A stretch of DNA of 64,000 nt from Schaalia cardiffensis (GTDB lineage Bacteria; Actinomycetota; Actinomycetes; Actinomycetales; Actinomycetaceae): positions 1-64,000 of the forward strand of contig NZ_JAEKIA010000006.1 of assembly GCF_016405145.1 (NCBI RefSeq), given 5' to 3'. Below, in pieces: positions 18,051-42,746 of this stretch (within the stretch, counting starts at the first letter, position 1; every line of letters begins with the position of its first letter). Both the position numbers and the translations under genes were made by a program. The notes under the pieces were generated by a model. That model was given only the letters and a program-made list of their open reading frames with translations. It was not told the DNA's origin and made no database searches.

Positions 18051-18066
18051 TGTTTCACGTGAAACA
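18051..18066. promoter_or_regulatory. parS: parS centromere site 1
   Basis: TGTTTCACGTGAAACA is the perfect 16-bp bacterial parS palindrome bound by ParB. It lies in the parA-parB gap. ParB loads here and spreads as a CTP-dependent clamp. Confidence 0.95.
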
Positions 18067-18912: not shown

Positions 18913-18928
18913 TGTTTCACGTGAAACA
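18913..18928. promoter_or_regulatory. parS: parS centromere site 2, before parB
   Basis: The same perfect 16-bp palindrome ends 27 bp before the parB start codon, between any promoter and the Shine-Dalgarno site or overlapping the promoter. ParB bound here could repress its own gene. Confidence 0.95.
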
Positions 18929-18955
18929 ATGGAGTTCGATTCAAGGAGGATACGG

Positions 18956-23255: not shown

Positions 23256-23305
23256 GGTGTATCTCCTGTTCTCCTTCAATGCTTCATGCGAGTTCAGAAT
23301 TGCGG

Positions 23306-23321
23306 TGTTTCACGTGAAACA
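23306..23321. promoter_or_regulatory. parS: parS centromere site 4, before ddl
   Basis: A perfect TGTTTCACGTGAAACA between ddl and the aminotransferase gene, 2.8 kb beyond the end of parB and 13.2 kb from parA-proximal oriC sequence at about 10 kb. ParB spreading from it could damp expression of ddl. Confidence 0.95.
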
Positions 23322-23410
23322 TTGAGTGTGAATCACTATAGGTGTTGGCCAAATCGTATGTGATGATCTAAAGCGTTCATGGGCAGCCATAGTCGCTCTG
23401 TTCAGCGAGC

Positions 23411-26197: not shown

Positions 26198-26267
26198 GAA
26201 CTTCCCACACAACATGCCAATGAACTCACCAATGTGGGAAGTAATTGGCATGGTGAGTGGAAAGCTC
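26198..26267. repeat. 70-bp palindromic repeat, copy A
   Basis: GAACTTCCCACACAACATGC begins the left arm and TTGGCATGGTGAGTGGAAAGCTC-like sequence forms the right. A 24-bp core contains CCAATGTGGGAAGTAATTGG. It is closely similar to copies B (34529) and C (36047). It lies between mgtC and the kinase operon, 21 bp after the mgtC stop, where its hairpin could also act as a terminator. Confidence 0.85.
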
Positions 26268-26285
26268 ACTGTCTTGTGCTCATGA

Positions 26286-26344
26286 GCGCAACATCGCCGC
26301 TTCTCTTCCGTGATCGCAATATCGCCGCCTTTCTTCCTTGTGAA
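26286..26344. repeat. Imperfect direct repeat of about 29 bp
   Basis: CGCAACATCGCCGCTTCTCT at 26286 recurs as CGCAATATCGCCGCCTTTCT at about 26314, followed in both cases by TCC-T-TGA-like sequence. The two copies abut. No function is evident. Confidence 0.6.
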
Positions 26345-26376
26345 ATAGAAGAAGAACCGCGAAATAGCTGACAGCT

Positions 26377-26388
26377 GCAAACGTTTGC
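26377..26388. promoter_or_regulatory. LacI-type operator before the kinase gene
   Basis: GCAAACGTTTGC is a perfect 12-bp palindrome with the central CG typical of LacI/GalR-family operators. It lies 87 bp before the kinase start. The LacI-family gene at 33412-34464 faces this operon and is the obvious candidate to bind it. Confidence 0.7.
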
Positions 26389-26474
26389 GTTAGCATGGTC
26401 GAACACTTTGCGCATGAACGCCGAGCAAAGAAGCTCGGGATGTGCAAACGCCGTGGTTCCAGGAGGAATGGCCC

Positions 26475-27428
26475 GTGAGCATCACAGTCATCGGATCGAA
26501 TAACACAGACCTCATCACCTACATCACCCGTTTTCCAGTTGAAGGCGAAACCATCGAGGCGCCCGACTTCGAAATCGGCTTCGGCGGAAAGGGGGCCAAC
26601 CAGGCTGTCGCAGCGGCGCGCCTCGGCTCCGAGGTCATCATGATGACCTGCGTCGGCGACGATGCTTTCGGTGCGGCGACGATCGAAAACCTCGCACACA
26701 ATGGCATTGACCTCTCGCTCGTGAAACAGGTTCACGGCACCTCCGGTGTGGCGCCGATCTTCGTCGACCCCGACTCCCACAACCGCATCATCATCGTCAA
26801 GGGCGCGAACAATGGACTATTGCCCGAAGACGTCGAAGCTGGCGCTCACGCCATATCAAAGACCTCACTCATCGTGTGCCAGCTCGAGATCCGCATGAAG
26901 ACCGTCGCGGCTGCGATCGCCTTGGGAAAGAGACTGGGTATTCCGGTTCTTCTCAATCCTGCACCGGCCACGAAAGATCTCGACCTTGAACTCGTCGCTC
27001 AATGCGCCTACGTGATGCCGAACGAGTCTGAGCTCGAACTCCTGACCGGCATCGCGACCGAAACGGAGGAACAGGTGAAGCGCGCCGCCCAAGTCTTTCT
27101 CGAAGCGGGCTGCCCGAATGTCATCGTCACCTTGGGATCACGAGGCGTCCGTTGGCTCTCTCACTCTGGAGACGATGTCTTCATCGCCCCATTCTCCATC
27201 GACCCTGTGGACACCACAGGCGCGGGAGATGCCTTCATCGGTTGCTTCGCGCACTGCCTATCCGAGGGCCTCGAAGTTCGCGAGGGACTTGAACTCGCGA
27301 ATGCATATGCGGCGCTGTCGGTCACTGCACGGGGGACCCAGAAGTCGTACCGCGATGCGCAGGAGTTCCGTTCCTGGCTTTCCGATAGAGACCACGTCCT
27401 TGCCGAGTCCCCTGTATTGCACCGTTGA
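26475..27428 (+). CDS. rbsK: Ribokinase-like PfkB-family sugar kinase
   Basis: This 317-residue PfkB enzyme phosphorylates a sugar or polyol. The family signatures are FEIGFGGKGANQAVAAARLG near residues 33-52 and DPVDTTGAGDAF near 240-251, whose Asp is the catalytic base. AGGAGGA precedes GTG 26475. It opens the uptake operon, with the LacI-type operator upstream. Ribose is the simplest guess, but the RpiB-like partner here lacks a residue needed for ring sugars, so another substrate is possible. Confidence 0.9.
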   Translation: MSITVIGSNNTDLITYITRFPVEGETIEAPDFEIGFGGKGANQAVAAARLGSEVIMMTCVGDDAFGAATIENLAHNGIDLSLVKQVHGTSGVAPIFVDPDSHNRIIIVKGANNGLLPEDVEAGAHAISKTSLIVCQLEIRMKTVAAAIALGKRLGIPVLLNPAPATKDLDLELVAQCAYVMPNESELELLTGIATETEEQVKRAAQVFLEAGCPNVIVTLGSRGVRWLSHSGDDVFIAPFSIDPVDTTGAGDAFIGCFAHCLSEGLEVREGLELANAYAALSVTARGTQKSYRDAQEFRSWLSDRDHVLAESPVLHR

Positions 27429-27444
27429 TAACGATTGCACAACA

Positions 27445-27462
27445 TCGAGCGATAATGCTCGA
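27445..27462. promoter_or_regulatory. Perfect inverted repeat in the leader of the binding-protein gene
   Basis: TCGAGC-GATAAT-GCTCGA lies 17 bp past the kinase stop, in the 242-bp gap before the binding-protein gene. Just upstream is TGATAACGATTGC, resembling half of the kinase operator. It may be an operator or weak terminator that sets separate levels for kinase and binding protein. Confidence 0.4.
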
Positions 27463-27670
27463 CACGCTGCGATGTTCGCCATACGATCAGTAACGTTCGT
27501 TCTAGGGGTCAAGCACGCACCTCTGAGCGTTCGACGGACCGTTCTTTCTTTCTGTCCCTGAGCTCGACGATGAGCTCGAACCCCGGGAAGAAGAAGGGAG
27601 GAGTTGCGATCCGGCGCCCACGCGCGCAAGACGATCCCATCAGCGTTGATGTGAATCACAAGGAGTCATC

Positions 27671-28708
27671 ATGAAGTCTCGAATCGCAGCCGTAAGTGCA
27701 ATCGTTCTCACTTCGGTACTAGGCCTCGCCTCTTGCTCTGGCGGGGACTCGACGAACTGTTCGTCGTCCCCCTCCACAGGGTCATCCTCGAACTACACGA
27801 TTGCCATCGTGCCCAAGGACGCGACGAACCCCTGGTTCGTGCGCATGGAGACAGGCGTCAACAAATACGCCGAAGAAACCGGGCTCAATGTGTTCCAAAA
27901 GGGTCCGGCCGAAACCGATGCCACCATGCAGGCGCAGGTCATCCAAGACCTCATCGCCCAGGGCGTTGACGCGATCGGCGTCGTCCCCGTCGACCCTGGA
28001 GCAATCGAACCCGTCCTTAAAGAGGCCATGGACGCCGGCATCGTCGTCGTCACCCACGAGGGAGCCTCCCAAGAAAACACGATGTACGACATCGAAGCTT
28101 TCAACAACGCCAAGTACGGTGCGTTCATCATGGACAACCTCGCAGCCGCAATGGGTGAAAAGGGGACCTACACGACAATGGTCGGCCACGTCACCAACGC
28201 CTCTCACAATGAGTGGGCGGACGGCGCCATCGCCCGTCAAAAAGAGGCCTACCCGAACATGACCCTCCTTGCAGCCGAACCGCGCGTCGAATCCCAGGAC
28301 AACGGCGAAACCGCCTACCAGGTGGCCAAGGAAGTCCTCAAGAAGTACCCGGAGGTCACAGGCATTCTCGGCACCTCCTCCTTCGACGCCCCCGGCGTTG
28401 CCCGTGCGATCGGCGAGCTCGGCCTGCAAGGCAAGGTCTTCACCGCCGGAACTGGCATGCCCGACGCGAACAAGGAAATCCTGGACAAGGGACTCGTCTC
28501 CGCCCTCACCCTGTGGGATCCGGCGGACGCGGGTTACGCGATGGCTTCACTGGCCACGAAGATCCTCGATGGGGAGAAGATCGAGGACGGAATCGACCTC
28601 GGCCCCAAGGGATACGTCATGCACTTCGCCGAGGGCTCCACGAAGGTCCTCGAAGGTGACGGCTGGATCCAGATCACCAAGGACAACGTCGACAGCTTCG
28701 GCTTCTGA
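27671..28708 (+). CDS. Sugar-binding lipoprotein of ABC transporter (AI-2/rhamnose type)
   Basis: The 345-residue precursor has a lipoprotein signal with lipobox LASC (Cys22), so the protein is anchored outside the membrane. The mature part is a periplasmic-binding-protein type I fold: IAIVPKDATNPWFVRME, GVDAIGVVPVDPGAIEPVL and GILGTSSFDAPGVARAIGELG. This subgroup is often labelled autoinducer-2 or rhamnose-binding, and it also serves other sugars and polyols. AAGGAG before the ATG fixes the start. It is followed by a stable hairpin and the transporter genes. Confidence 0.9.
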   Translation: MKSRIAAVSAIVLTSVLGLASCSGGDSTNCSSSPSTGSSSNYTIAIVPKDATNPWFVRMETGVNKYAEETGLNVFQKGPAETDATMQAQVIQDLIAQGVDAIGVVPVDPGAIEPVLKEAMDAGIVVVTHEGASQENTMYDIEAFNNAKYGAFIMDNLAAAMGEKGTYTTMVGHVTNASHNEWADGAIARQKEAYPNMTLLAAEPRVESQDNGETAYQVAKEVLKKYPEVTGILGTSSFDAPGVARAIGELGLQGKVFTAGTGMPDANKEILDKGLVSALTLWDPADAGYAMASLATKILDGEKIEDGIDLGPKGYVMHFAEGSTKVLEGDGWIQITKDNVDSFGF

Positions 28709-28717
28709 CGATCGCTC

Positions 28718-28744
28718 GGGGGCGTCGGATCTGCCGACGCCCCC
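28718..28744 (+). other. Stable intercistronic stem-loop
   Basis: GGGGGCGTCGG, a 5-base loop and CCGACGCCCCC form an 11-bp perfect stem 10 bp after the binding-protein stop. There is no T-run, so it is unlikely to be a full terminator. Such hairpins shield the 3' end of binding-protein messages and raise their level over the permease messages, which fits its place here. Confidence 0.7.
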
Positions 28745-28811
28745 GCGTTCCGCGTGAAAGGCAGCGGTCTCGAGAACCCCTCAAGGCGCTGCACCTCGGA
28801 AGGAAACGGGA

Positions 28812-30323
28812 ATGGAATCCCCACTCATCTCAGTGAAGAACGTCTCTAAGACCTTCGCAGGCGTCAAGGCGCTCAACAACATCGACCTCGAGATCGCACC
28901 GGGCGAAATCCACTGCCTCGCCGGCGAGAACGGCTCAGGAAAGTCGACCCTCATCAAAGTGATCTCCGGAGTCCACGAACCAGACTCGGGCACCATTGAA
29001 ATCAACGGGCGAACATGGACGAAGATGACGCCCCTCGAAGCGATCGGCGCCGGAGTCCAAGTGATCTACCAGGACTTCTCCGTCTTCCCGAACCTCACAG
29101 TCATGGAGAATCTCGCTCTGACGACCGAGGTCGCAGCGGGGCGAAAACTCGTCAACTGGAAGCGCTTCAGGAAGATCGCCGAGGAGGCGGTGGCGAAGAT
29201 CGGCTTCACCGTAGACCTTGACGCGAAGGTCGGTGAACTCTCCGTCGCAGACAAGCAACTCGTCGCGATCTGCCGGGCCCTCATGTCAGATGCGAAGCTC
29301 ATCGTCATGGATGAGCCGACCACCGCACTGACAAAACACGAGGTCGACGCCCTCTTCTCCATCATCTCCGACCTCAAGGCCCGCGGTATCGCCATTCTCT
29401 TCGTCTCCCACAAACTCGAAGAGGTCTTCGAAATCTCCGAACGCTTCACCATCCTCCGTTCAGGAGAAAAGGTCATCACCTGTGAACGCGATGAGCTCGA
29501 CCGCCACAAATTCGCAAAGTACATGACAGGCAAGGAGTTCACCGAAACCCGTTTCGAAGCAGATGCCCTCACTGAAGAAGTAGTCCTCGAGGTGAAGAAC
29601 CTCTGTGCAGCAGGGGCTTTCGAAGACGTCTCCTTCTCCCTCAAAGGTGGAGAAATCCTCGGCATCACAGGCCTACTCGGATCCGGACGCACGGAACTCG
29701 CACTCGCCCTCTTCGGCTCCCTGCCCACGACCTCGGGAACGATCAGCGTGAAGGGAAGAAACGTCACCCTCTCCTCTGTACAAGACGCCATCAAAGCCGG
29801 CATCGCCCTCGTCCCTGAAGATCGCCTCACTGAAGGGCTCTTTCTCACCCGATCAATCGGGGAGAACATCGTCATTTCAGAACTCGATTCCTTCGCGGGC
29901 GCACTCGGCGTTCTCGATAAGAAGAAGATCGAGAAGGAGGAGATCAGATGGGTCCAAGAACTCGAAGTCGCCACCCCGAATCATGAGAACGCCGTCAACA
30001 CCCTCTCGGGCGGCAATCAGCAGAAAGTCGTCCTCGCCAAGTGGCTCGCGACGAAGCCCGACGTCTTGATCCTCAATGGACCAACCGTCGGCGTCGACAT
30101 CGGATCGAAGTACACAATCCACTCGATCCTTCAGCGCCTCGCTGCTCAGGGCATGGCGATCGTCATCATCTCCGACGATATTGCCGAAGTCCTCACAAAC
30201 TGCTCATCCGTCCTCATCATGCGCGGTGGTCGCATATGTGAATCCATTGATCCGGCTACGACGAGTGAGGCCGAACTCGGCGAGCTCGTCTCCCGCGACA
30301 CGGCCCAGGAAGGAGTGAAGTGA
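28812..30323 (+). CDS. Sugar ABC transporter ATPase, two nucleotide-binding domains
   Basis: The 503-residue protein has two fused ABC domains like RbsA/LsrA. The first has Walker A AGENGSGKSTLIKVI and DEPTTALT; the second has the degenerate P-loop TGLLGSGRTELALALFG and the signature LSGGNQQKVVLAKWL. It powers import through the two permeases that follow. The stop and the next start are only 1 bp apart. The asymmetric second domain is normal for this carbohydrate-uptake type. Confidence 0.94.
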   Translation: MESPLISVKNVSKTFAGVKALNNIDLEIAPGEIHCLAGENGSGKSTLIKVISGVHEPDSGTIEINGRTWTKMTPLEAIGAGVQVIYQDFSVFPNLTVMENLALTTEVAAGRKLVNWKRFRKIAEEAVAKIGFTVDLDAKVGELSVADKQLVAICRALMSDAKLIVMDEPTTALTKHEVDALFSIISDLKARGIAILFVSHKLEEVFEISERFTILRSGEKVITCERDELDRHKFAKYMTGKEFTETRFEADALTEEVVLEVKNLCAAGAFEDVSFSLKGGEILGITGLLGSGRTELALALFGSLPTTSGTISVKGRNVTLSSVQDAIKAGIALVPEDRLTEGLFLTRSIGENIVISELDSFAGALGVLDKKKIEKEEIRWVQELEVATPNHENAVNTLSGGNQQKVVLAKWLATKPDVLILNGPTVGVDIGSKYTIHSILQRLAAQGMAIVIISDDIAEVLTNCSSVLIMRGGRICESIDPATTSEAELGELVSRDTAQEGVK

Positions 30324-30324
30324 C

Positions 30325-31335
30325 ATGACTTCGCTGAAGGCAAAAGTCCTGCGAGCGAATGAGTTCTGGGTCTTCCTCGTGATAGTCCTCCTCGCCCTCG
30401 TCATCCAGATGCGAAGCGGCCAGTTCTTCTCGGCGAATAACCTCGTCGACCTCGCGAACGCGATGGTCGTCCCTGGGCTCTTCGCCATCGCCGCGCATCT
30501 TGTCCTCGTATCGGGCGGAATCGACGTGTCCTTCCCGGCCCTCGCCTCACTCGCGGTCTATGCGACGACTCGCATCCTCGTCGATCAAGGATTCAACGGA
30601 CCGGTGATCGTCCCCTTCCTTCTCGCCATGCTTTTCGGCGCACTCCTCGGAGCGTTCAACGGGTTGTTCACCTCGTGGCTCACAGTTCCGACACTCATCA
30701 TCACGCTCGGTACAGCGAATGTCTTCTCCGGCGTCATGCAGGGCGCGCTCAAATCGGTCCAGATCCCCAACATCCCCCAGTCGATGAAAGCTTTCGGCGA
30801 GTCCACCCTTTTCACGGTGACGAATACCCAATCAGGTCTCAAATCCGTGATGCCGACGAGTATCCTCATCTTCCTCGCCGTTCTCGCCATCGTCTTCTTC
30901 ATCACCCGATACACAATGTTCGGGCGCGGTATCTTCGCGATCGGCGGCGACGAATCAGCCGCAGAGCGCGCCGGATTCAAAGTCCGGCGCACGAAGTTCT
31001 GGCTCTATGTCATCGTCGGAGTCATCGCCGCGCTCGCGGGCATGGTGCGCACCACTTCCATGGGCCAGATGCACCCGACGAATCTTCTCGGCATGGAGAT
31101 GATGGTGATTGCGGCCGTCGTCCTAGGAGGCACGGCGATAACCGGCGGCACCGGTTCACTCACGGGTGTCATCCTCGGCACTCTCCTCATCGTCATCGTT
31201 CAAAACTCAATGATCCTCACCGGCATCCCAACCTTCTGGCAGGGCTTCGCCCTCGGCCTCCTCATCATCATCGGTACCGGCGTTTCTGCCGTGCAGGTGG
31301 CGAGGTCGAAGCGCACCCAAGCAGCGGGAATGTGA
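30325..31335 (+). CDS. Sugar ABC transporter permease 1
   Basis: This 336-residue protein has eight or more hydrophobic segments and the BPD_transp_2 pattern (GGIDVSFPALASLAVYAT, GLFTSWLTVPTLIITLGT, FAIGGDESAAERAGF). It pairs with the second permease to form the channel, as in the LsrC/LsrD or RhaP/RhaQ systems that use two different permeases. AGGAGTGAAG precedes the ATG, overlapping the end of the ATPase gene. Confidence 0.92.
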   Translation: MTSLKAKVLRANEFWVFLVIVLLALVIQMRSGQFFSANNLVDLANAMVVPGLFAIAAHLVLVSGGIDVSFPALASLAVYATTRILVDQGFNGPVIVPFLLAMLFGALLGAFNGLFTSWLTVPTLIITLGTANVFSGVMQGALKSVQIPNIPQSMKAFGESTLFTVTNTQSGLKSVMPTSILIFLAVLAIVFFITRYTMFGRGIFAIGGDESAAERAGFKVRRTKFWLYVIVGVIAALAGMVRTTSMGQMHPTNLLGMEMMVIAAVVLGGTAITGGTGSLTGVILGTLLIVIVQNSMILTGIPTFWQGFALGLLIIIGTGVSAVQVARSKRTQAAGM

Positions 31336-31349
31336 CAGGAGAACCACTG

Positions 31350-32399
31350 ATGAGTATTTCATCCCTTTCCCAACGCAAACGAGTCGGAATGCCGTCCTTC
31401 CTCACGAAGGACACGTACATGACGAGGCTCATTCTCATCCTCGTCCTCCTCCTCATCTTCTTCGCGGTCGTCAAGCCCGGTCCCTTCTTCGCCTTGAGGA
31501 CCTGGCAGTCTATGGCGATCCAGTTCCCCGAATTCGGACTCATGGCACTCGGCGTCATGCTCACAATGTTCACCGGCGGTATTGACCTTTCGGCGGTTTC
31601 GATCGCGAACGTCACCTCGATCTGCACAGCTCTCATCCTGCGAGCAACCCTGACCGGGGATGCGAGCCCCTCCTCGATGGGTCTTGCCATCGCGATCGCT
31701 CTTGGGGTCGCACTCACAACTGGATCAGTGTTCGGCGCCTTCAATGGTTTCCTCGTCTCGGTGCTGAGGATTCCACCGATCCTCGCGACCCTTGGAACCA
31801 TGGAACTCTTCGGCGGCATCGCGATCATCCTCACAGGAGGAAAACCTGTCTCCGGTGTTCCTGATGCCTATGGAGCTGTCTTCGCCGCTCGCATTGGAAT
31901 CGTGCCGATGCCGCTGATCGTCTTCACCGTCTGCGCGCTCCTCATCGGTCTCATCCTCACGCTCACCGGATTCGGCACGAAGATCCTCCTCATCGGTGCG
32001 AATGAGAAGGCGGCGCACTTCTCGGGACTGAAGATCAGAGGTCTTCTCATGAGGACCTATATCCTCTCGGGCATTCTCTCTGCGATGGCCGGCCTCGTCA
32101 TGCTGGCGAATTACAACTCTGCGAAAGCCGATTACGGAGCGAGCTACACCCTTCTCACTGTCCTCATCGTCGTCCTCGGTGGAGTGAACCCGAATGGAGG
32201 AAGAGGACGCATCGCGGGCGTGGTCCTCGCGATCGTCATCCTCCAGGTGCTGTCCTCAGGGCTCAATATGTTCCCCAATATCTCCAACTTCTATCGCGCG
32301 CTGATCTGGGGCGGAGTACTCCTCGTCGTCATCTGTGCGAACGAACTCAATGGCAAGAACCCCTTCAAGGGCCTCCTCGTGGAAAGGAAGAAAGCATGA
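31350..32399 (+). CDS. Sugar ABC transporter permease 2
   Basis: The 349-residue multi-pass protein carries FTGGIDLSAVSIANVTS, LVSVLRIPPILATLGTMELF and LIGANEKAAHFSGLKI, the same family as its neighbour but clearly diverged. ATG 31350 has ACAGGAGAA before it. A much longer open frame reaching back to 30675 lies inside permease 1 in another phase and is spurious. The stop overlaps the next start by 4 bp. Confidence 0.92.
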   Translation: MSISSLSQRKRVGMPSFLTKDTYMTRLILILVLLLIFFAVVKPGPFFALRTWQSMAIQFPEFGLMALGVMLTMFTGGIDLSAVSIANVTSICTALILRATLTGDASPSSMGLAIAIALGVALTTGSVFGAFNGFLVSVLRIPPILATLGTMELFGGIAIILTGGKPVSGVPDAYGAVFAARIGIVPMPLIVFTVCALLIGLILTLTGFGTKILLIGANEKAAHFSGLKIRGLLMRTYILSGILSAMAGLVMLANYNSAKADYGASYTLLTVLIVVLGGVNPNGGRGRIAGVVLAIVILQVLSSGLNMFPNISNFYRALIWGGVLLVVICANELNGKNPFKGLLVERKKA

Positions 32400-32959
32400 A
32401 GACTGTGAGAAGCAAACAGATCGTCGTGGGGGCTGACTTCGCGGGATTCCCACTCAAAGAGGCGGTCAAGGGTCACCTGCAGGAGCGAGGCTGGACCGTC
32501 ACCGACCTCACCCCGGACATCTCTAGCGCCCCCATGTACCACCGCGTCGGTTTCGCCCTCGGTGCGAAGATCGCCGAAGGCGAATTCGAACGGGCCCTCG
32601 CCTTTTGCGGGACCGGAATGGGAATCCACATCGCCGCTTCGAAGGTCCCGCACGTGCACGCCGCCGTTTGCGAGACTGTTCCTTCCGCAAAGCGAGCAGC
32701 TGCGGCGAATAACGCGAACCTCCTTGCGATGGGCGCGTTCTACGTCGCTGAACGCACGGCGATGGCAATGGCTGATGCCTTCCTCGAATCTGAGCTCGGT
32801 ACGGGGTACGAGGACTGGGAAGGCTTCTACGAATACCACCGCATCGGATATGACGAGTGCGAGAGCTTCGATTACGCCGCCTATAAGGCGAACGGCTTCG
32901 AAGTCGTCAATCCTCAGACAGCTCTCCTCGCCCCCGAGCCAAAGGGGTTGGCCTACTGA
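32396..32959 (+). CDS. RpiB/LacAB-family sugar-phosphate isomerase
   Basis: The 187-residue protein starts VVGADFAGFPLKEAVKGHL and has the RpiB active-site loop FCGTGMGIHIAASK with its cysteine. Where RpiB and LacAB carry His-Asn-Asp/Asn (the His opens the sugar ring), this protein has ANNANLLAMG, so that His is absent. The family converts aldose and ketose phosphates. Loss of the ring-opening residue hints at a substrate that need not cyclise, such as a tetrose phosphate. The start overlaps permease 2 (ATGA). Its last codons form unit one of a tandem repeat. Confidence 0.85.
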   Translation: MKTVRSKQIVVGADFAGFPLKEAVKGHLQERGWTVTDLTPDISSAPMYHRVGFALGAKIAEGEFERALAFCGTGMGIHIAASKVPHVHAAVCETVPSAKRAAAANNANLLAMGAFYVAERTAMAMADAFLESELGTGYEDWEGFYEYHRIGYDECESFDYAAYKANGFEVVNPQTALLAPEPKGLAY

Positions 32960-33050
32960 GGTGCGAGGCCTACTGAAGCGCGAGGCCTACTGAGGCGTGA
33001 GGCCTACTGAGGCGTGAGGCCGACTGAAGCGCGAGGCCTACTGAGGCGCA
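32950..33050. repeat. 17-bp tandem repeat, six copies, seeded by the isomerase stop codon region
   Basis: GGCCTACTGAGGTGCGA and close variants run head to tail at 32950, 32967, 32984, 33001, 33018 and 33035. The first unit contains the Ala-Tyr-stop codons of the isomerase gene, so every unit repeats TACTGA. The array therefore arose by amplifying the end of the gene. Confidence 0.9.
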
Positions 33051-33061
33051 CATACGTGGAA

Positions 33062-33100
33062 TCCGCCGCTCCTTCAACCAAAATCGAAAGGAGCGGCGGA
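33062..33100. terminator. Bidirectional hairpin between the sugar operon and its regulator gene
   Basis: TCCGCCGCTCCTT pairs with AAGGAGCGGCGGA across a 13-base loop containing an A-run. The 13-bp perfect stem lies between convergent genes and should stop transcription from both sides, although no long T-run follows. Confidence 0.7.
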
Positions 33101-33180
33101 CTCGTGTTCGCCTTGAGAAGACTCCCCATAAAATCAGTGATCCTGCCTTTGGGTGGGCACAAGACCAATGGACGCCCCTC

Positions 33181-33292
33181 GGGTCGTGCAGGTCTTGGGT
33201 CGTGCAGGTCTTGGGTCGTGCAGGTCTTGGGTCGTGCAGGTCTTGGGTTGTGCAGGCCTCGGGTCGTGCAGGTCTCGGGTTGTGTAAGTCTG
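33181..33292. repeat. 16-bp tandem repeat, seven copies
   Basis: GGGTCGTGCAGGTCTT is repeated without spacers from 33181. The first four copies are identical and the last three are degenerate (for example GGGTTGTGCAGGCCTC). No CRISPR-like spacers exist. It is a minisatellite likely to vary in copy number between strains. Confidence 0.92.
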
Positions 33293-33411
33293 CGGATCCG
33301 CCCCTCAAAAGGTCAGTTGATTCGGCTGAGTGAATTGGCTCGAGTCGACTGAGCGAAGGGTCAGGCGAATGAGGCCAAGAGCATGATTCTTCCCCGAAAA
33401 GCAGGAGCTCC

Positions 33412-34464
33412 TCAGCCCTCGAAACCGGTTGATTCGCGAACAATGAGCTCGCCTCGCACGATGATTCGCTTCTCGATTGGCTCATCTTCGGATAAGAGAA
33501 GATCGACTCCGCGCCGGGCGATCTCAGCGAGAGGTTGGCGAAGTGTCGTCAAAGACGGTCGCATTAATTGGGCGAACTGAATATCGTCAAAGCCTGTGAC
33601 CATGACCTCCTCCGGGATTCGCCAACCGCGGTGGCGAAGCTCTGTCGCCGCGCCAATCGCAATGAGGTCGTTGAGACACACGAAGGCATCCCACTTGTCC
33701 CCGCGGGCCAGCAGAACGCTCACCGCATTGCGTGCGGACTCAACCGAGAAGTTGCATTCAACGACGTCAGTGTCCTTCAGCTGCATCCCGAACTCCTCGG
33801 CCGCAATTCTCGCTTCACTCACGCGCGTCATGGAGGAGACATCAGTTCCCGTGTTTGAGAGGAGGGCGATGCGCTGAGCTCCTTTATCGCGCAAGTGTTC
33901 GAGGATCGCGCGAATACCGTGACGATCATCGACTCCGACCATCGGAAGTTCAGGGAGTTGAACCGCGCGATCGAGCTGCACGGTGTTGACGAGTGATGAA
34001 GTGCGCTCGAGGGCGGGGGTGGAGAATGCCTCATGGCAGGGCACGGAGATCAGTCCGTCAACGGAGCCTCCCTCGAAGGAGCGGAGCTGAAAATCCTCTT
34101 TGATCACCGACATTTGGGAATCTGAGAGCAGCAAAGACAGGCCGCGCTCGGCCAGACAATGCTCCACTTGGACAACGAGCTCCATGAAGAAGGGATTCGA
34201 GATCGAGGGGACCACCATGCCGATCTGCTTGGTCCTCGCGAGTCGTAAGGATCGGGCGACCGGGTTGACTCGATATCCGAGCTCGCGTGCGACCTGGCGC
34301 ACATGATCGCGGGTCTGGGCGCCGATGAGTTCGGAGCCGCGTCCGAGCGCCCGCGAGGCTGTTGAGACGGAGACGCCCGCTGCGCGTGCGACGTCAACTA
34401 ACCGGGGTCTTTGCCTGTCATCGGTCGCCATGGCCTCAGCGTAGTGCTTGTCGATCATTGGCAT
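33412..34464 (-). CDS. LacI-family transcriptional regulator
   Basis: The N-terminal helix-turn-helix reads LVDVARAAGVSVSTASRALG, followed by the hinge VNPVARSLRLARTKQIGMVVP. The rest is the periplasmic-binding-protein-like sensor (VDGLISVPC, GVDDRHGIRAILEHL, VTGFDDIQFAQLMRPSLTT). It faces the sugar operon and probably represses it at the palindrome before the kinase. GACATTCCACAATGCC near its own start contains a CATT/AATG inverted repeat. ATG 34464 is the longest start; Met12 at 34431 would leave a tighter N-terminus. Neither has a strong ribosome site. Confidence 0.92.
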   Translation of the reverse strand: MPMIDKHYAEAMATDDRQRPRLVDVARAAGVSVSTASRALGRGSELIGAQTRDHVRQVARELGYRVNPVARSLRLARTKQIGMVVPSISNPFFMELVVQVEHCLAERGLSLLLSDSQMSVIKEDFQLRSFEGGSVDGLISVPCHEAFSTPALERTSSLVNTVQLDRAVQLPELPMVGVDDRHGIRAILEHLRDKGAQRIALLSNTGTDVSSMTRVSEARIAAEEFGMQLKDTDVVECNFSVESARNAVSVLLARGDKWDAFVCLNDLIAIGAATELRHRGWRIPEEVMVTGFDDIQFAQLMRPSLTTLRQPLAEIARRGVDLLLSEDEPIEKRIIVRGELIVRESTGFEG

Positions 34465-34528
34465 TGTGGAATGTCATCCCTAGTGCCTCGTGTATCAACT
34501 CTGAGATCAGAGAGAAGCACTGTCCGCT

Positions 34529-34598
34529 GAGCTTCCCACATAACATGCCAATGAACTGACCAATGTGGGAAGTAGTTGGCATATTCAGTGGGAAGCTC
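34529..34598. repeat. 70-bp palindromic repeat, copy B
   Basis: GAGCTTCCCACATAACATGC opens the left arm and TTGGCATATTCAGTGGGAAGCTC-like sequence closes the right arm; the core has CCAATGTGGGAAGTAGTTGG. It sits 23 bp beyond the 3' end of the AlbA_2 gene, whose 5' end carries copy C in the opposite orientation. Copies A and B also share GCAC-G-CCGCT just outside the left arm. Confidence 0.88.
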
Positions 34599-34621
34599 GC
34601 CCACGCCTCACCGGATTTCGA

Positions 34622-36064
34622 TCAACGCTCCGGAAGAACACGTCGGTAGCGCTGTCGAGGGCTCTTTGGAGGCTCAGTTGCCTCGACTACGCCGTCCTCA
34701 ATCAGTGAATTCAGGGAGTTCTGTACAGAGGTTCTGCTCAGTCCCGTGGCTCGGACGAGGTCTTTGGTTGAAGCGCTTTCGCGATCTGCCAGGATCGCTC
34801 GTACGACTTCCAGCGCGGTGGTGTACTGCTCAGCTTGAGCGACGCGGCGCCGACGGAACACGACTGTGAACTGGGTGAGATCGTTCTTGAATTCGGCCGG
34901 AGGCATCAAAGCCTCGCGAAGCGCCGCTTGAATCACCTGAATCCCCGTGCCGCGGTTCTCCGCGATGATGCCGCCATCCGCGAGAGCCACGCTCTCCAAG
35001 AAAGTTGCCAAGCGCTGGTTGCGAGTCGCAGAAGTGCCGGCGGCCTCAAGCGTCGCAAGAGTAGTGTTCCCGTAGAGCCCCCCTGGATTCGTGATCTCAA
35101 GACGATCGACGAAGAGGTTGACTTGCACCTGAGTGCCGCGCGCTGCTGGGGAGTAATCGCGGTGCATGAGTGCGTTGACAATGGCTTCTCTCACTGCGAC
35201 GAGCGGGTAGTCGGGAAGTTCTGTCCTGAACCTCTCGCCGATAAGCGCTCCAGTCCGCATGTTCCTCGCAACGAGGTCGAGTGTACGTTCGACGAGTTCA
35301 GGAATCGGGCCAGTCACTGTTGCACTGTCAAGAAGGCGAGTACCGGTTGTGATCTCCCCTTTTGATGTTCCCGGGAACATCGCCCAAGCGACGGTGAGCC
35401 GCGGGAAGAACTCCTGAGGGTACTCACCCATGGCGAGGAGAGCTGCGAGGGTCGGATGCTCTTGCCGGGTGATGCGCAGGCGCGCAAGCGCCAGATCCTC
35501 ACCATGTGCGAAGGTCTTCGGACGTTTTACCCGTTCGCTTTGAAGGAAGGGAGCGAGGATGCTGGAATCGAGATCATCTACGGAAGCATCGTCGACGGGC
35601 TCCTCATCCCATTTCGGCTGTGTTTTCTGCTCGATGAGGCGGTCGACTTCATATTGCGTCATCCGCATATCACCGTCACCGGTGCGTTTGTAAGAACCTC
35701 CGTAGCACCCCTGGTCGGTGACATAGCAGGGTTTATCAAGCGACTGCATTTCCGGGATTTCTGCGACGAGGACGAGAGCGTCGTCGACCTTGAGAATCTC
35801 GATTTCGGGCCGAACGACGGGAGTCATCTGCTCGCACCGGGACATGAGCTGGTTCTGTGCGCTCTGGGGGTCGAAACCCTCGACGGGTGTGAACCCCTGG
35901 GTTTCCGACACACCGATGATGAGGGTTCCACCGTCAGAGTGAGAGAAGGCGCTCAAGGTTTCACGCACGGCTTTGCCGATCCCTGGCTTCACTTGTTCTG
36001 AACTGGTGTCGAAACCGAGAAGACGGAAACGATCGATGCGCTCGCGAAGCTCTTCATCCAACAT
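34622..36064 (-). CDS. AlbA_2-domain ATP-binding transcriptional regulator-like protein
   Basis: The 480-residue protein starts with an AlbA_2 (Schlafen-like) domain: GKAVRETLSAFSHSDGGTLIIGV. The middle holds an ATPase-like region with ALMHRDYSPAARGTQVQV and NRGTGIQVIQAALRE. The C-terminus is a winged helix (STKDLVRATGLSRTSVQNSLNSLIEDGVV). Such proteins are annotated as ATP-binding or putative DNA-binding regulators; the target is unknown. The first ~35 codons of the longer frame lie in palindromic repeat copy C, so I start at ATG 36064; ATG 36082 is also possible. Confidence 0.82.
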   Translation of the reverse strand: MLDEELRERIDRFRLLGFDTSSEQVKPGIGKAVRETLSAFSHSDGGTLIIGVSETQGFTPVEGFDPQSAQNQLMSRCEQMTPVVRPEIEILKVDDALVLVAEIPEMQSLDKPCYVTDQGCYGGSYKRTGDGDMRMTQYEVDRLIEQKTQPKWDEEPVDDASVDDLDSSILAPFLQSERVKRPKTFAHGEDLALARLRITRQEHPTLAALLAMGEYPQEFFPRLTVAWAMFPGTSKGEITTGTRLLDSATVTGPIPELVERTLDLVARNMRTGALIGERFRTELPDYPLVAVREAIVNALMHRDYSPAARGTQVQVNLFVDRLEITNPGGLYGNTTLATLEAAGTSATRNQRLATFLESVALADGGIIAENRGTGIQVIQAALREALMPPAEFKNDLTQFTVVFRRRRVAQAEQYTTALEVVRAILADRESASTKDLVRATGLSRTSVQNSLNSLIEDGVVEATEPPKSPRQRYRRVLPER

Positions 36065-36116
36065 GCCAACTACTTCCCACATTGGTGAGTTCATTGGCAT
36101 GTTGAGTGGGAAGCTC
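36047..36116. repeat. 70-bp palindromic repeat, copy C (inverted)
   Basis: Read on the minus strand, GAGCTTCCCACTCAACATGC begins at 36116 and the core has CCAATGTGGGAAGTAGTTGGC. The far arm is degenerate because it runs into the coding start of the AlbA_2 gene (MLDEEL). The ATG codons at 36064 and 36082 both lie inside the element, so its hairpin would fold over the translation start. Confidence 0.85.
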
Positions 36117-36431
36117 GCCCAAAACTCAGGAAGACTGAAGGAAAGACCTGAAAGCTGAGTCTTCAACGGCCTCCTCTGCCGCATCTCAAGTGGCCGACCC
36201 GGGCACGCCTGACCCTCCAGGGACTCTTCCGATCTGCTTTCTTCGCATTGCCCTCTTCATCATGCTGGGCCTTTTCGCTTCTCGTGCGAATCATCCTAAG
36301 GAAACGTGTTCCCCTTCAATGTCCGCTCCGAACTCGCATCAGGAGGAAGACGGCCCCGCAGTCATCCGACTCGCCCTCGGCTCCTCTCAGAGCGCCCTCC
36401 CTCGGATCGCCTTCTCTCGGGTCACCTTCTC
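36117..36431. other. 315-bp gap with imperfect repeats
   Basis: No gene is visible. Near 36380-36435 short blocks of the type CTCTCAGAGCGCC, CCCTCGGATCGCC and TCTCGGGTCACC recur, giving a weak pyrimidine-rich repeat before the epimerase-like gene's 3' end. The promoter of the AlbA_2 gene should lie at the left. Confidence 0.4.
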
Positions 36432-37406
36432 TTAGAGCGCCTCACCGGTGATGCGGTGTCGGATCTCGTAGATCTGGCCCGCATGCAGCTCAACGGCGGT
36501 GCGGAAACCGGCATCACTGAGAGGATTGGGAGCTCCTGATACGCCTGTTCCGAAATCGAAAGCGGATGTGATCGCCTCAATGCCCAGGCATAGGTTCCTC
36601 CCACACCACGGGGCGCCTTTGCGACCGTAGTTCGAAATCCACAGCATCGCGTGGTCGAGCACCTCGGTATCCCACTCAAGGGCGACACAATATCCCTCGG
36701 CCTCATTGAACAGTGCGACGCGCCCCTCCTTCGGGGCGGCCAAAAGAACGATCTCGTCGACCTCGTCTTTGAGGGGAAGGCGCGTGAGATCCAGCGTGCC
36801 ACCATCAGCTCGAGGTGCCTTGGTCGCATCGTGGAACACCGCGCCCCTGTCCAGTACTGAGGTGCCCGAATCGGCGGGGAAGCTCCACAAGGAATCGCAT
36901 TCGGGCAGCTCAATGCGCGCACCGCCCTCGGCCTCGGGAAGCGAAAAGATCGGATGGAGGCCGAGCGGCAGGCAACAGTCGGAACGAACGAGGATCGAAT
37001 CGAGGAACTCGACCCCGCCTTCGAGGCAGGTGACGCGGCGCTCCACCTTCTCGATCGGAAAATCGGGAGCATATTCGAGGAAGAGCCTCGCATGGTCTTC
37101 ACCGACTTCGCTTGCGCTCCACTCCAAGTTTGCGGAGGGGCCGTGCACCCATTCGCTCGGGCCCGCAAAACCCTGACGCCACGCCTCTGGCAGGTCCTCG
37201 GCCGAGGCGGGGGCCGCACCGAAGGGGGCGCACAGGAAATCACCCCGCAAGCTGTCAAGCAGCGCAAGCTCGGGGAAGCCCTCCCATTTCGCCGTGTACG
37301 AGGGCGAGAACTGGCGCGGGGTCCCGGGGTTGAAGACGAGGGTCGTCATCGCGCCGAGAGGCTGAATGCTTGCGCGCACGCTTTCGTTTCCGATGATGAT
37401 GTCCAT
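36432..37406 (-). CDS. Aldose 1-epimerase (GalM)-fold protein
   Basis: This 324-residue protein has a beta-sandwich layout of the GalM/YihR superfamily. The sugar-binding segments FPELALLDSLRGDFLCAPFG, GLHPIFSLPE (His likely catalytic) and HAMLWISNYG are visible, followed by GRNLCLGIEAITSAFD. It likely inter-converts anomers or reads a sugar, but the key residues differ from textbook GalM, so substrate and activity are uncertain. GAAGGAG six bases before ATG 37406 fixes the start. The sugar porter gene lies upstream on the same strand. Confidence 0.75.
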   Translation of the reverse strand: MDIIIGNESVRASIQPLGAMTTLVFNPGTPRQFSPSYTAKWEGFPELALLDSLRGDFLCAPFGAAPASAEDLPEAWRQGFAGPSEWVHGPSANLEWSASEVGEDHARLFLEYAPDFPIEKVERRVTCLEGGVEFLDSILVRSDCCLPLGLHPIFSLPEAEGGARIELPECDSLWSFPADSGTSVLDRGAVFHDATKAPRADGGTLDLTRLPLKDEVDEIVLLAAPKEGRVALFNEAEGYCVALEWDTEVLDHAMLWISNYGRKGAPWCGRNLCLGIEAITSAFDFGTGVSGAPNPLSDAGFRTAVELHAGQIYEIRHRITGEAL

Positions 37407-37943
37407 GTCGACTCCTTCGTCGAGAACACTGAGGTGACCAGGTGTGGCCGGTGCTGAGGCCAGGAACACCCGGAGTCACCTGGGGCGGGGAGGTCACCCG
37501 GGGCCAGTCTGTACCTGGACCACCCTGGGGTGGCTGCTTCGTGAAACAGATCCAAGTGTAGTCACCTGTGGTCTGCCTACTCTGCGCCCCGTGCCCGACT
37601 GTCAACTCGAAAAAGATGATGTCGGGACTTGGCCCAACTGCTGCGCCCCCGGGGGCCGACTTGTGCCTGATGAACTCGCGTCCGATGAACGCGTACCTGA
37701 TGAGTATGGGGATTATTCACCTGACCCGTGCCTGATGAACCTGTGCCTGGTGGGCGTGGGGGTCGCTCCACCCGACTTGTGCCCGATGAGTGTGTCGTCC
37801 CCGTCTCCTTCCCTCGTCCCTTTCCCACTGACTGATTAGTACGGATGCCGTCGTCGTCCCCTCCTGGTCTTCCTCGCCCGCCTCGTAGCTCTCGTCCTTT
37901 CATCCGCCTCCTCCTCTTCGCTTCCTCGTAGTCCCTGGGTGAG
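37407..37943. other. 537-bp gap with short imperfect repeats
   Basis: No gene is visible. Between 37665 and 37795 variants of GTGCCTGATGAAC recur six or so times at 15-30 bp spacing (37666, 37679, 37695, 37727, 37742, 37771). The last 100 bp before the sugar porter are pyrimidine-rich on the plus strand. Confidence 0.5.
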
Positions 37944-39667: not shown

Positions 39668-39720
39668 CCACCTCCTGCTATCTCCTAATGTGGGAATAAT
39701 TAGGAGATTTTAGGAGGTGG
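39668..39720. promoter_or_regulatory. 53-bp inverted repeat covering the ribosome site of fic
   Basis: CCACCTCCT...ATCTCCTAAT pairs with ATTAGGAGAT...AGGAGGTGG around the loop GTGGGAAT. The right arm contains AGGAGG, the Shine-Dalgarno site of the Fic gene, so in RNA the fold would hide it. As DNA it could be an operator. The core TAATGTGGGAATAATTA resembles the core of the 70-bp repeats (CCAATGTGGGAAGTAATTGG). Confidence 0.75.
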
Positions 39721-39725
39721 AGGCA

Positions 39726-41084
39726 ATGAAGCTCCCCATTCCACCACCGGCACCACTGGCGGATATGAGACGCATCCTCATTGGAGGAAACACTGACACG
39801 CGACATCTCGTCGACGTCATCACATCCAGAACATTGGCTGAAGATCCCTTGTACCACCCGTGGGAGTGGTTCTTCCGACATGAACCCCCTGAGGGATTTA
39901 CGCGTGAGGAGTGGTGGGTTGCTGTTCGTTCAGCCCGCGCTGCGACAGCGCGGCCTCTTCCCCTGAGGCTCACAAATGGTCAGGCACTCACATTCAATCT
40001 TCCCGACCCGCTTCTTCGGCTCGTCGACGAGATCTCCGCGCGCGCTCGCGGGCAAATCGAGCTTCCGGAACCCGTTGTGAATACGGCTACCCGCAATCGC
40101 TACCTCGTTCGCTCACTCATTGAGGAATCAATGACGTCTTCCCAGCTTGAAGGAGCCGCAACCTCGCGAATCGATGCAAAGAAGATGTTGAGGGAGAACC
40201 GAAAGCCGAGGGATCGCTCTGAACGCATGATCGTCAACAACTTCCTCGCAATGAAGCGAATCACCGAGTTACGCAATGAATCCCTGACTCCCGAACTCGT
40301 CTGCGAGATTCACCGTCGCGTGACAGATGGGACTATCGATGACCCCGCCGAGGCCGGAAGAATTCAACGTCCCGGTGACAGCCGCGTTCGGATCGTCGGT
40401 GACGCCAGCGATGAACAGATCCTCCATATACCGCCCCCCGCAGCGGAACTACCGAAACGCTTGGAGGAGCTGTGTGCTTTCGCCAATACCTCGTCGAATA
40501 ACGAGGACGGTCCGTATGTCCCTCCCCTCGTACGCTCCATCACCCTTCACTTCATGATGGGACACGACCACTATTTCGCAGACGGGAACGGGCGAACCGC
40601 TCGCGCAGTCTTCTATTGGTCAATGCTCAACCAGGGTTTCTTCCTCACGGAGTATCTTTCCATTTCGCGCTTACTTCTCAAGGCGCCCGCGCGCTACGCG
40701 CGCAGCTTCCTTTACACCGAACAGGACGAGGGTGATCTCACCCATTTCCTTCTTGAACAGGCGAAAATCGTTGAACGGGCGATCATCGATCTTGACGGCT
40801 ACCTCGCTCGCAAGACGAGAGAACTGAAACAGTTCGGCAGCAAGCTCCGCACACTCGGGCTCAATCACCGCCAGATCGCGCTCCTCGAGGCTTTTGTCCG
40901 CGACCCAGGCGCGATCACGACGGTCGCCGAGCATCAACGCACTCACGGTGTCTCGAACCAAACCGCTCGCACTGACCTGCAGGATCTGCATGAACGGGGT
41001 TATCTCCACGTGGTCAAGAGCGGTAAGACCTTCATGTGGTACCCCGGGGATGATATTGCCACGAGGATTGATTCAGGGCACTAG
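39726..41084 (+). CDS. Fic-domain protein with C-terminal winged helix
   Basis: Fic proteins transfer AMP or similar groups onto hydroxyl side chains of targets. The active motif HYFADGNGRTAR is at about residues 282-293 and is complete. An inhibitory-helix motif of the (S/T)xxxE(G/N) type, SSQLEG, lies at about 138-143, N-terminal to the Fic core, so activity should be self-restrained (class II-like). A winged helix (QIALLEAFVRDPG to LHERGYLHVV) ends the 452-residue chain and may bind DNA. AGGAGG 8 bases before ATG 39726 fixes the start. No separate antitoxin-like gene precedes it. Confidence 0.9.
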   Translation: MKLPIPPPAPLADMRRILIGGNTDTRHLVDVITSRTLAEDPLYHPWEWFFRHEPPEGFTREEWWVAVRSARAATARPLPLRLTNGQALTFNLPDPLLRLVDEISARARGQIELPEPVVNTATRNRYLVRSLIEESMTSSQLEGAATSRIDAKKMLRENRKPRDRSERMIVNNFLAMKRITELRNESLTPELVCEIHRRVTDGTIDDPAEAGRIQRPGDSRVRIVGDASDEQILHIPPPAAELPKRLEELCAFANTSSNNEDGPYVPPLVRSITLHFMMGHDHYFADGNGRTARAVFYWSMLNQGFFLTEYLSISRLLLKAPARYARSFLYTEQDEGDLTHFLLEQAKIVERAIIDLDGYLARKTRELKQFGSKLRTLGLNHRQIALLEAFVRDPGAITTVAEHQRTHGVSNQTARTDLQDLHERGYLHVVKSGKTFMWYPGDDIATRIDSGH

Positions 41085-41600
41085 CTGGACTTCCCTGGGA
41101 GGCTGTGGAGGTGAAGGTCTTGTGGGCTGGATGTGGGGTTGTCACGTTCATGTCCGGTTCAAGGAGGCTTTCATGACTGACGCTCATGCAGCTTTGATGT
41201 CTCAGGGAGTCGCTCATCTGGAGGGTGGCCTGGTATTCCGCCAACGACGCGGCGTGGGCCTCTGGGGAATAATCCCTCCTCCCGGATTCTTCTCACTTTG
41301 AGGGAGTGTGCGTCATTGGGGTCGATGAACACGTGTGGCGTCAGCGGGGTGGAGACAGGTACGCAACGGTGATCGTGGACTTGACACCCGTGCGCAACAA
41401 ATACCCCTACACCAGCTCATCAAGACAATCACCAGGCCCGACCTGTTAAAACTCACATCGCACTGGCTCGCATGAGAAGCAGCTTCACTCGCCGAGTCCA
41501 AGACATCCTGGCCTACTTCGACCACTCCAAGCCTGCTCGAAACGAGAGGGTTCAGACCTCACCCACACCCCATCTGCGAAAAGCCTGTTTGATGATCGAC
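41085..41600 (+). pseudogene. Remnant of an ISL3-type transposase
   Basis: At 41309 one frame reads CVIGVDEHVWRQRGGDRYAT, then VIVDLTP, matching the catalytic-Asp block VLGVDEDVWHH of the ISL3 copy at 58 kb. Near 41530-41580 another frame gives LLETRGFRPHPHP, the usual C-terminus of such transposases. The parts between are out of frame or deleted. It is a dead fragment between the Fic and toxin-antitoxin genes. Confidence 0.7.
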
Positions 41601-41649: not shown

Positions 41650-42171
41650 ATGGCGAGCATAACGATGGAAAGAGACGGTATTGGGGTATGTTCGCGAGGT
41701 TCGCGTACGGTTTTGCCCCCTGAAGATCGCCGCGAGCTTCATGAGATCGATCAGTTGCTCGCGGCTCAGCCAAGGCTTGTCGACCAGCAAGGGCATGCGA
41801 TCCCTCTGCCGGAAGAGGTGTTCAGTGTGCTTCGCGATGTCGTTGAAGCCATGCAGGCTGGACGGGCAATCGTGCTGACTCCGACCGCCATGCGTTTGAC
41901 GACCGGGGAGGCTGCGGAGATCCTCGGCGTGTCTCGTCCGACTCTTGTGAAACTCCTTGAGGAAGGAAAGATCCCCTTCGATAAGCCGAATCGGCATCGA
42001 TACGTGATGCTCGAAGACCTTGAGCGGTATCGAGCAAAGCGGGCCGCAGAGCGGCGAGCGGCCATCATGAGGTTCTCGGAGTCGGCTCGAGAACATCAAT
42101 TTGATGATCCGACCCCCGAAGAAGTCGCCGAAGCGGTGAGAGTCGTGAGATCGGGGATGAGTACAGAGTGA
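41650..42171 (+). CDS. Excisionase-type HTH antitoxin of a PIN toxin
   Basis: The 173-residue protein has a MerR/excisionase-like helix-turn-helix: LTTGEAAEILGVSRPTLVKLLEEGKI, then NRHRYVMLEDLERYR, at about residues 83-128. The C-terminal 40 residues would bind the toxin. It would neutralise the PIN RNase and repress the operon. Its stop codon overlaps the toxin start (GTGA). ATG 41665 is an alternative start. The pair fits known HTH_17-PIN modules. Confidence 0.85.
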   Translation: MASITMERDGIGVCSRGSRTVLPPEDRRELHEIDQLLAAQPRLVDQQGHAIPLPEEVFSVLRDVVEAMQAGRAIVLTPTAMRLTTGEAAEILGVSRPTLVKLLEEGKIPFDKPNRHRYVMLEDLERYRAKRAAERRAAIMRFSESAREHQFDDPTPEEVAEAVRVVRSGMSTE

Positions 42172-42746
42172 GTTTCCGAGCCCTTCTTGATGCGAATGTG
42201 CTGGTTCCCATCACTGTTGCGGATGTCTTCCTGCGCTGCGCCGAGCAGGGCTTCTACGATCTACTGTGGTCAGACCGCATCATCGAAGAGGTCTCGCGGA
42301 CGCTGGTACAGCTCAATCCATCGATTCCTCGGAATAACATCGATGAGCGGATTCAGGACATGATAAGAGCCTTCCCACAGGCAACGGTCTCCGATTGGAA
42401 GGTGTTTCGAGAACGATGCCCCGAACTGCCTGACAGTAATGACGAGCACGTATGTGCCGCTGCGATTGCGGGAAATGCCGATGTGATTGTCACATTCAAT
42501 TTAAAAGACTTTCCGCAGGATGCACTGGAGCAGGCCGAATTATTTGCCCAGGGTCCCGATGAATTCATGCTCGACCTGTGGGATCTCAAGCCGTGGTATC
42601 CACAGAGAATTGTCACGATCATCGACGAGATGAGCGATGTGAGAGGTCTCAATTGGAGGGACATGGTTCATCGTTTGTCGAAGGCCGGGCTACCGAAGTT
42701 CGCTAATCTGATCACCGAGTGGCACTACGACAACAACGCTGATTGA
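42168..42746 (+). CDS. PIN-domain toxin (putative RNase)
   Basis: This 192-residue PIN protein starts FRALLDANVLV, whose Asp8 is the first metal ligand. EEVSRTL supplies a second acidic position and DEHVCAAAIAGNADVIVTFNLKDFP holds the remaining acidic residues. The family cleaves RNA, often tRNA or rRNA, when free of antitoxin. Its GTG start overlaps the antitoxin stop by 4 bp. The last 55 residues extend past the common PIN core. Confidence 0.87.
   Translation: MSFRALLDANVLVPITVADVFLRCAEQGFYDLLWSDRIIEEVSRTLVQLNPSIPRNNIDERIQDMIRAFPQATVSDWKVFRERCPELPDSNDEHVCAAAIAGNADVIVTFNLKDFPQDALEQAELFAQGPDEFMLDLWDLKPWYPQRIVTIIDEMSDVRGLNWRDMVHRLSKAGLPKFANLITEWHYDNNAD

Follow-up and report, generated by a model that had tools for sequence, protein, structure and literature searches.

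The analysed stretch (the window, 64,000 nucleotides of a Schaalia cardiffensis contig) contains a gene for a Schlafen-like protein that is bracketed by two 70-bp palindromes, and a further copy of the same palindrome stands alone next to a ribose operon. The features are listed below, with the basis for each in brackets.

34529..36116, minus strand: whole unit, palindrome-gene-palindrome, 1588 bp (anatomy by comparison with other loci)
34622..36064, minus strand: gene for a 480-residue protein with AlbA_2 (Schlafen), HATPase_c_4 (GHKL) and winged-helix regions (Pfam, AlphaFold2)
36047..36116, minus strand: copy C of the palindrome, at the left (5') end of the unit and in inverted orientation to A and B (comparison with other loci)
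34529..34598, plus strand: copy B of the palindrome, at the right (3') end of the unit (symmetry, folding, comparison with other loci)
26198..26267, plus strand: palindrome copy A, solo (symmetry, identity to B, genome search)

The three repeats that the first-pass annotation had placed at 26198, 34529 and 36047 were all found there. Its long imperfect hairpins are borne out by folding: z-scores lie between -4.5 and -8.8 across both strands, and each time none of 200 shuffles was as stable. A, B and C are the top three 70-mers of the window by symmetry (25, 24 and 22 of 35 positions, against 20-22 for the best 70-mer in five mononucleotide shuffles of the window); the symmetry of C by itself is borderline, its likeness to A and B is not. 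Without gaps, and with C taken on the minus strand, A and B agree at 62/70 positions, B and C at 59/70 and A and C at 61/70. A and B are moreover 88% identical over 83 nt, which includes 13 nt of flank outside the element. The arms that had been quoted for all copies, GAGCTTCCCAC/GTGGGAAGCTC, are complete in B, but A starts with GAACTTCCC and one arm of C is degenerate. The copies are thus similar, as had been claimed, but the inversion of C and the position of B and C on either side of one gene had been overlooked.

A search of the own genome (2,240,847 bases in 34 contigs) returns only these three copies, all within 10 kb. Copy A lies 22 bp past the stop of an mgtC-like gene and 174 bp before the start of an rbsK-like open frame, so that it stands alone between the mgtC-like gene and the ribose operon, 8.3 kb from B. 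Copy B lies 23 bp past the stop of the Schlafen-like gene, with an rbsR-like open frame 64 bp downstream, and the predicted ATG of the Schlafen-like gene (36064-36062) falls inside copy C. A structured RNA family was rejected as an explanation: at the gathering threshold Rfam reports two tRNAs in the whole window and no curated family within the palindromes.

Pfam, run on the longer open frame 34622-36184, assigns SLFN_AlbA_2 (PF04326; E 2.7e-12, 47.7 bits, cut-off 25.3), HATPase_c_4 (PF13749; 83.3 bits, cut-off 26) and MarR_2 (30.3 bits, cut-off 27) to the encoded protein, and no recognised transposase domain. An AlphaFold2 model based on a 40-sequence alignment has a mean predicted local distance difference test score (pLDDT) of 87.5 and a predicted TM-score (pTM) of 0.75. 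Its residues 414-479 resemble winged helix-turn-helix (wHTH) folds in a structure search, which points to a C-terminal winged helix. The closest solved structure is 3lmm (DIP2311; VIA Z 21.2 over 345 residues), where the root-mean-square deviation (rmsd) of 16.1 suggests a different placement of the domains. Further matches are 2kyy (Z 12.0, rmsd 2.8, 125 residues) and SLFN13 (5yd0; Foldseek E 1.5e-4). Residues D19, E24 and E54, putative counterparts of the Schlafen nuclease residues, are invariant or almost so in an alignment of 22 proteins. The domain order is that of bacterial Schlafen proteins (AlbA_2 ribonuclease (RNase), GHKL or minimal histidine-kinase ATPase, wHTH; COG2865-like), and the fold is shared with 3lmm, 2kyy and SLFN13; a role in defence is likely common to them too. 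PMC12839542 reports that Schlafen RNases occur across BREX loci as fusions with a minimal histidine kinase and wHTH, and refers to a preprint for anti-phage work on bacterial Schlafens. From homology and this published context, the gene probably encodes a Schlafen-type anti-phage RNase. PADLOC gave 14 partial profile matches to the window protein (pAgo, Sir2-Argonaute and Csa3 among them), and these were given no weight. Unlike bacterial Schlafens as known, the window gene is solitary, and the palindromic arrays on its two sides match each other and co-vary with its wHTH. In the accessible open-licence PMC literature (a scope outside of which preprints fall) we recognised no description of palindromes flanking Schlafen-like genes.

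The pairing of gene and palindromes extends well beyond the window. A family-wide protein search (213 genomes, one per species, E<=1e-100) finds a homologue in 26 of them, the own genome included, and a scan of genome contigs gave at least 578 relatives, the best 80 of which are actinobacterial with other phyla at lower identity. Combining these 80 with 27 loci from the family search gave 107 loci, of which 98 were used for a flank-matching test after removal of seven duplicates, of L040 because its gene is broken and of L119 because its flank is short. At a left/right score cut of 36 (the maximum in 1000 shuffles was 33), matching left and right arrays are found in 19 of the 21 loci with at least 55% protein identity. 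The window is among the 19; L034 falls just below the cut, and L033 is the other locus without a match. The counts are 12/21 at 45-55% identity, 2/24 at 40-45% and 3/32 below 40%, and many distant homologues have an upstream palindrome only. One locus, L077, scored negative through a wrongly mapped start; its duplicate L050 has both arrays. The array sequence varies by lineage (CTTCCCAC, CTCAACAC, CTCTCAAC, AACACTACAC, CTTATTCAC, CTTACCACC and others), left and right being the same within a locus.

Within the genus, two of 34 other genomes match the window palindrome at E<=0.01 (G024 and G029). In both, the match falls at the 3' end of the homologous gene, whose start has a palindrome of its own, and the predicted gene start again falls within a palindrome arm. 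A third genome (G032, identical to locus L065, Schaalia sp.; 57% protein identity) also has a bracketed gene, with palindromes of another sequence (CTTCACAC/CTTCGTAC-like). These counts bear on the idea of a dispersed miniature element, which stands insofar as gene-free copies exist (see below) but sits poorly with three copies in 10 kb and with genus matches that are both beside the same gene. Conserved gene-start sequence does not describe the element either: the linkage to the gene holds, but palindromes occur on both sides of it and also where the gene is absent.

Some loci show additional repeats. In G029 the left palindrome is preceded by a ~40-bp copy of the 3' end of the gene, a pattern that deletion of a gene copy upstream could leave behind. 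Short shared stretches are seen upstream of both palindromes in L051 and L036/L058, and downstream in L045 and L049/L076. In Thermophilibacter, a distant homologue (L079, 6001-7476) lies between direct repeats of ~92 bp which by eye resemble the 3' portion of a tRNA gene, and Gryllotalpicola (L110) has an array of ~110 bp with TCACTGA-type half-sites upstream of 6001. Viral contigs gave 18 distant relatives (22-36% identity). With the L056 protein as query, there was one plasmid record (35%; E<=1e-40) and there were 37 phage records (E<=1e-10), all below 60%, with 38% for the top one among the matches listed.

An indication of movement comes from units of Gleimia europaea (L056, the same as G147), Pseudoglutamicibacter albus (L059), Gulosibacter hominis (L060) and Brevibacterium mcbrellneri (L061, the same as G435), which represent four actinobacterial families in two orders. 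The units are 84.4-86.5% identical over 1,622-1,667 alignment columns, and outside them none of the six pairs of loci (11.0-13.4 kb) has a matching stretch at E<=1e-3; similarity stops at the palindromes or within ~30 bp of them. The large frames nearby are not the same: one set comprises DUF4379 and lipoprotein, another aspartokinase-like and fumarase-like frames, a third exonuclease and solute-binding protein, and a fourth beta-lactamase-family, CobW and permease. Five of the 18 neighbouring frames examined have no Pfam match. Two Brevibacterium genomes (G435 and G266) likewise carry 88% identical units at different loci that match only from palindrome to palindrome. G204 and G207 have the unit and the right flank in common, and the shared stretch starts at the left palindrome. 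The same unit is therefore found at different loci with defined ends, as in an insertion sequence. We consider it probable, though by no means settled, that the palindromes serve as binding arrays and also delimit a one-gene Schlafen unit that moves horizontally, copy A being a solo end of such a unit.

These observations also bear on another possibility, namely that the arrays are operators (or an operator and a downstream boundary) of an autoregulated defence gene which spreads by ordinary transfer and homologous recombination, gene plus operators being all that stays recognisable afterwards. It accommodates the left array at the gene start in most loci inspected, the distant homologues that often have an upstream palindrome alone and the co-variation with the wHTH. 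It does not lead one to expect a matching downstream copy in most close homologues, similarity that ends at the palindromes at unrelated loci, or relatives that lack the gene and one palindrome together, and we regard it as unlikely.

Such relatives are seen at several sites. Gene-free palindromes comprise copy A and those in G344, G506, G154 and G156, where absence of the gene is based on DNA comparison for G344 and G506 and on the family-wide protein search (E<=1e-100) for G154. The genus names of G156, G266, G344 and G506 are deduced from a genus label that they have in common with G147 or G435. Overall, three gene-lacking loci retain a lone palindrome (intact or decayed) and one has none. 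In Brevibacterium, G344 shares flanks with G435 (90-97%) and has one palindrome and no gene. G204 carries the unit. In G203 and G205 the flanks shared with it enclose a palindrome in a decayed state (86% over 36 bp; 78-79% over 56-59 bp), and G208 gave no more than a weak match of 22 bp at this site. In Gleimia, the place of the palindrome-gene-palindrome of G147 is taken in G156 by two palindromes without the gene: the left flank, 96% identical over 5.3 kb, leads into a palindrome with a central gap and then an MmeI-type gene, followed by a second copy of the left flank (87%, 298 bp), an intact palindrome and the G147 right flank (94%, 237 bp). Conversely, G156 has a second, divergent Schlafen-like gene (L200:4841-6592) with its own palindromes of another sequence, and at that site G147 has one chimeric palindrome and no gene. 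The Gleimia (both loci), Brevibacterium and G203-G205 cases fit loss by recombination between direct copies. The remaining case fits insertion: in Corynebacterium minutissimum (L057) and Corynebacterium sp. MSK008 (L064) the unit lies between rmlCD- and rmlA-like genes, which in G912 are 22 bp apart and palindrome-free (65-74% identity at this locus).

Other genes are seen beside the gene-free palindromes. The MmeI-type restriction-modification gene of G156 (L200:7129-9903) lies between two copies of a ~340-bp segment of flank and palindrome, and the DNA left of the lone palindrome in G344 holds a Fic-like open frame (motif by eye). Three candidate empty sites were rejected: G148 for Gleimia (flank too diverged), the locus in a probable Actinotignum group (with G090, identical to L077) at which five of six genomes carry the unit (G091, without it, matches part of the left flank only), and the own genus. 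There the ribose operon is conserved in G003, G008, G010 and G029; the borders and gene 36432-37469 are arranged differently, so that an empty site cannot be read.

The palindromes are built in a manner that suggests recognition by the protein. Over the 34 flanks of the 17 loci in the CTTCCCAC group, the 8-bp half-site motif C[AT]T[ACG][CA]CA[CG] has 172 matches against 5.95 in shuffles, the motif having been picked by eye from the same arrays before it was counted. Spacing is 12 bp in 82 of 106 intervals and 11 bp in 17, and the usual order is three forward half-sites followed by three reverse; the right flank of L038 has none in the scanned stretch. Some arrays (for example L057 and L062, by eye) mix half-site variants such that opposite arms no longer pair. 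This suggests that what is conserved is a dyad of protein half-sites more than a hairpin, although in the window both arms match in the variant ATGCCAA. Across 39 loci, similarity of the upstream palindromes follows winged-helix identity given the rest of the protein (partial Mantel r=0.407, 0/2000 permutations), and follows the rest given the winged helix far less (r=0.078, 419/2000), in a test that removes phylogenetic dependence only partly and whose input includes four palindromes placed by hand coordinates and, for L045, a wrong hairpin. Helices of type LSRTxVQ go mostly with CTTCCCAC arrays and those of type ISxGGTR mostly with CTCAAC/CTCTCAAC arrays, yet L063 combines an LSRSAVQ helix with a different array. 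From the phased half-sites and the co-variation with the winged-helix region, we infer that the encoded Schlafen-like protein binds the palindromes as arrays; the earlier suggestion of a regulator binding unit is in this respect well supported, as far as sequences can tell.

A free-standing repeat of the type of a miniature inverted-repeat transposable element (MITE) or repetitive extragenic palindrome (REP), with the gene adjacent by chance, was rejected and seems highly improbable. The copies without an adjoining gene (A; G344, G506, G154) would suit it, but the genome has three copies only, a search for the REP-type Y1 transposase (PF01797) gave no match in the own genome (the control was positive in 6 of 14 genomes), and for most copies it is contradicted by a repeat that goes with one gene family and co-varies with it in sequence. 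REP systems with their RAYT (REP-associated tyrosine transposase) proteins similarly have extragenic palindromes cognate to one nearby gene and solo copies elsewhere; they differ in palindrome length (20-40 bp against 70 bp in the window), and the high copy number and Y1 protein have no counterpart in this genome with its three copies. Integron gene cassettes resemble the unit in combining one gene with a foldable site and in the gain or loss of gene plus one site, but the unit has a palindrome at the start codon too and has no recognised integrase. IS200/IS605 insertion sequences also have a single gene between imperfect palindromes; they show no evident target duplication, and no signal of one was seen in the 25 units compared here, whose outer ends are approximate. 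In contrast to them, the unit lacks a Y1 transposase domain, gene-free sites often retain a palindrome and the half-sites form phased arrays.

The TnpA of IS200/IS605 acts at subterminal hairpins, and by analogy the Schlafen-like protein might itself be the recombinase or transposase, its nuclease-like domain acting at the bound palindromes to excise and insert the unit. The unit boundaries, the lone-palindrome sites and the one palindrome-free site, the palindromes that, at the loci read, enclose this gene alone, and the wHTH that tracks the end sequence would all suit this. Nonetheless, Pfam recognises neither a transposase nor a recombinase domain, the activity known for Schlafen folds is that of RNases, a target-duplication signal was not seen in 25 units, the genome has three palindromes and one unit only, and the losses are explained by ordinary homologous recombination; we hold such activity to be doubtful. 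A minimal mobile element of a new class, in which a Schlafen nuclease with GHKL ATPase excises and inserts its own gene via the end arrays, is an improbable version: the anti-phage effector would be its own mobiliser, and array and recognition helix would co-evolve.

Returning to the palindromes as binding arrays and ends of a moving unit, each palindrome would be a dyad of 12-bp half-sites in phase, as a rule three in forward and three in reverse orientation, to which the encoded winged-helix domain binds. The left array overlaps the region of the gene start, where autoregulation would be its most likely role, and a second, near-identical array would close the unit downstream. Palindrome, gene and palindrome would then move together between genomes and loci, and recombination between direct copies could delete the gene with one array, leaving a solo array. 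In the window, B and C would bound the unit and A would be such a solo array, which might also affect the ribose operon.

A number of points weigh against this interpretation, in addition to the limits attached above to the half-site counts and the Mantel test. Since related units have arrays in common, matches also arise between the flanks of different loci (99% quantile 67, maximum 157); the flank test consequently shows matching within loci and not independence of loci. By eye, L042, L033, L046 and L052 have a left array only, so the right array is not essential; L042 (genome G086) lacks it within a locus that is otherwise shared. Among 25 units no target-duplication signal was detected: the longest shared word averaged 3.76 nt, and 3.70 nt in mismatched pairs, with outer ends that are approximate. 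Among the gene-free sites, G344 carries ~1.4 kb of extra DNA left of its palindrome, G156 and G147 are not a clean pair given the two gene-free palindromes with the MmeI-type gene between them, and the palindrome-free state of G912 could, at 65-74% identity, be ancestral or a full loss. Lone-palindrome sites could also reflect ordinary homologous deletion. Finally, the copies in the window and in L057 are inverted to each other, and simple deletion between them would not work.

Several other features were observed in the window. A ParB gene (18902-20494) has several TGTTTCACGTGAAACA sites nearby (18041-18067, 18913-18937 and 23297-23331), a motif that we take to be parS-like, and on this basis the window is probably near the chromosomal origin. 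Two distinct short tandem repeats with 17-bp and 16-bp periods (32933-33065 and 33162-33305) lie between the rpiB-like and rbsR-like genes, and the ribose permease open frame (30675-32399) has a long N-terminal extension that overlaps the permease gene before it. Less than 7 kb from the unit are a Fic gene and a pair of helix-turn-helix and PIN genes resembling a toxin-antitoxin system (39717-41084 and 41650-42746). Another dispersed sequence occurs in two 40-nt copies that are 85% identical (41531-41570 and 56614-56653).

With the palindromes as their arrays, bacterial Schlafen-like genes would gain a defined cis-acting partner, a long array that is readable from the genome and that should predict the DNA specificity of each Schlafen-like protein. 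The genes would move as compact units that can leave a scar, so that gains and losses of the genes could be located and dated. In addition, self-mobilisation of an immune effector would become testable.

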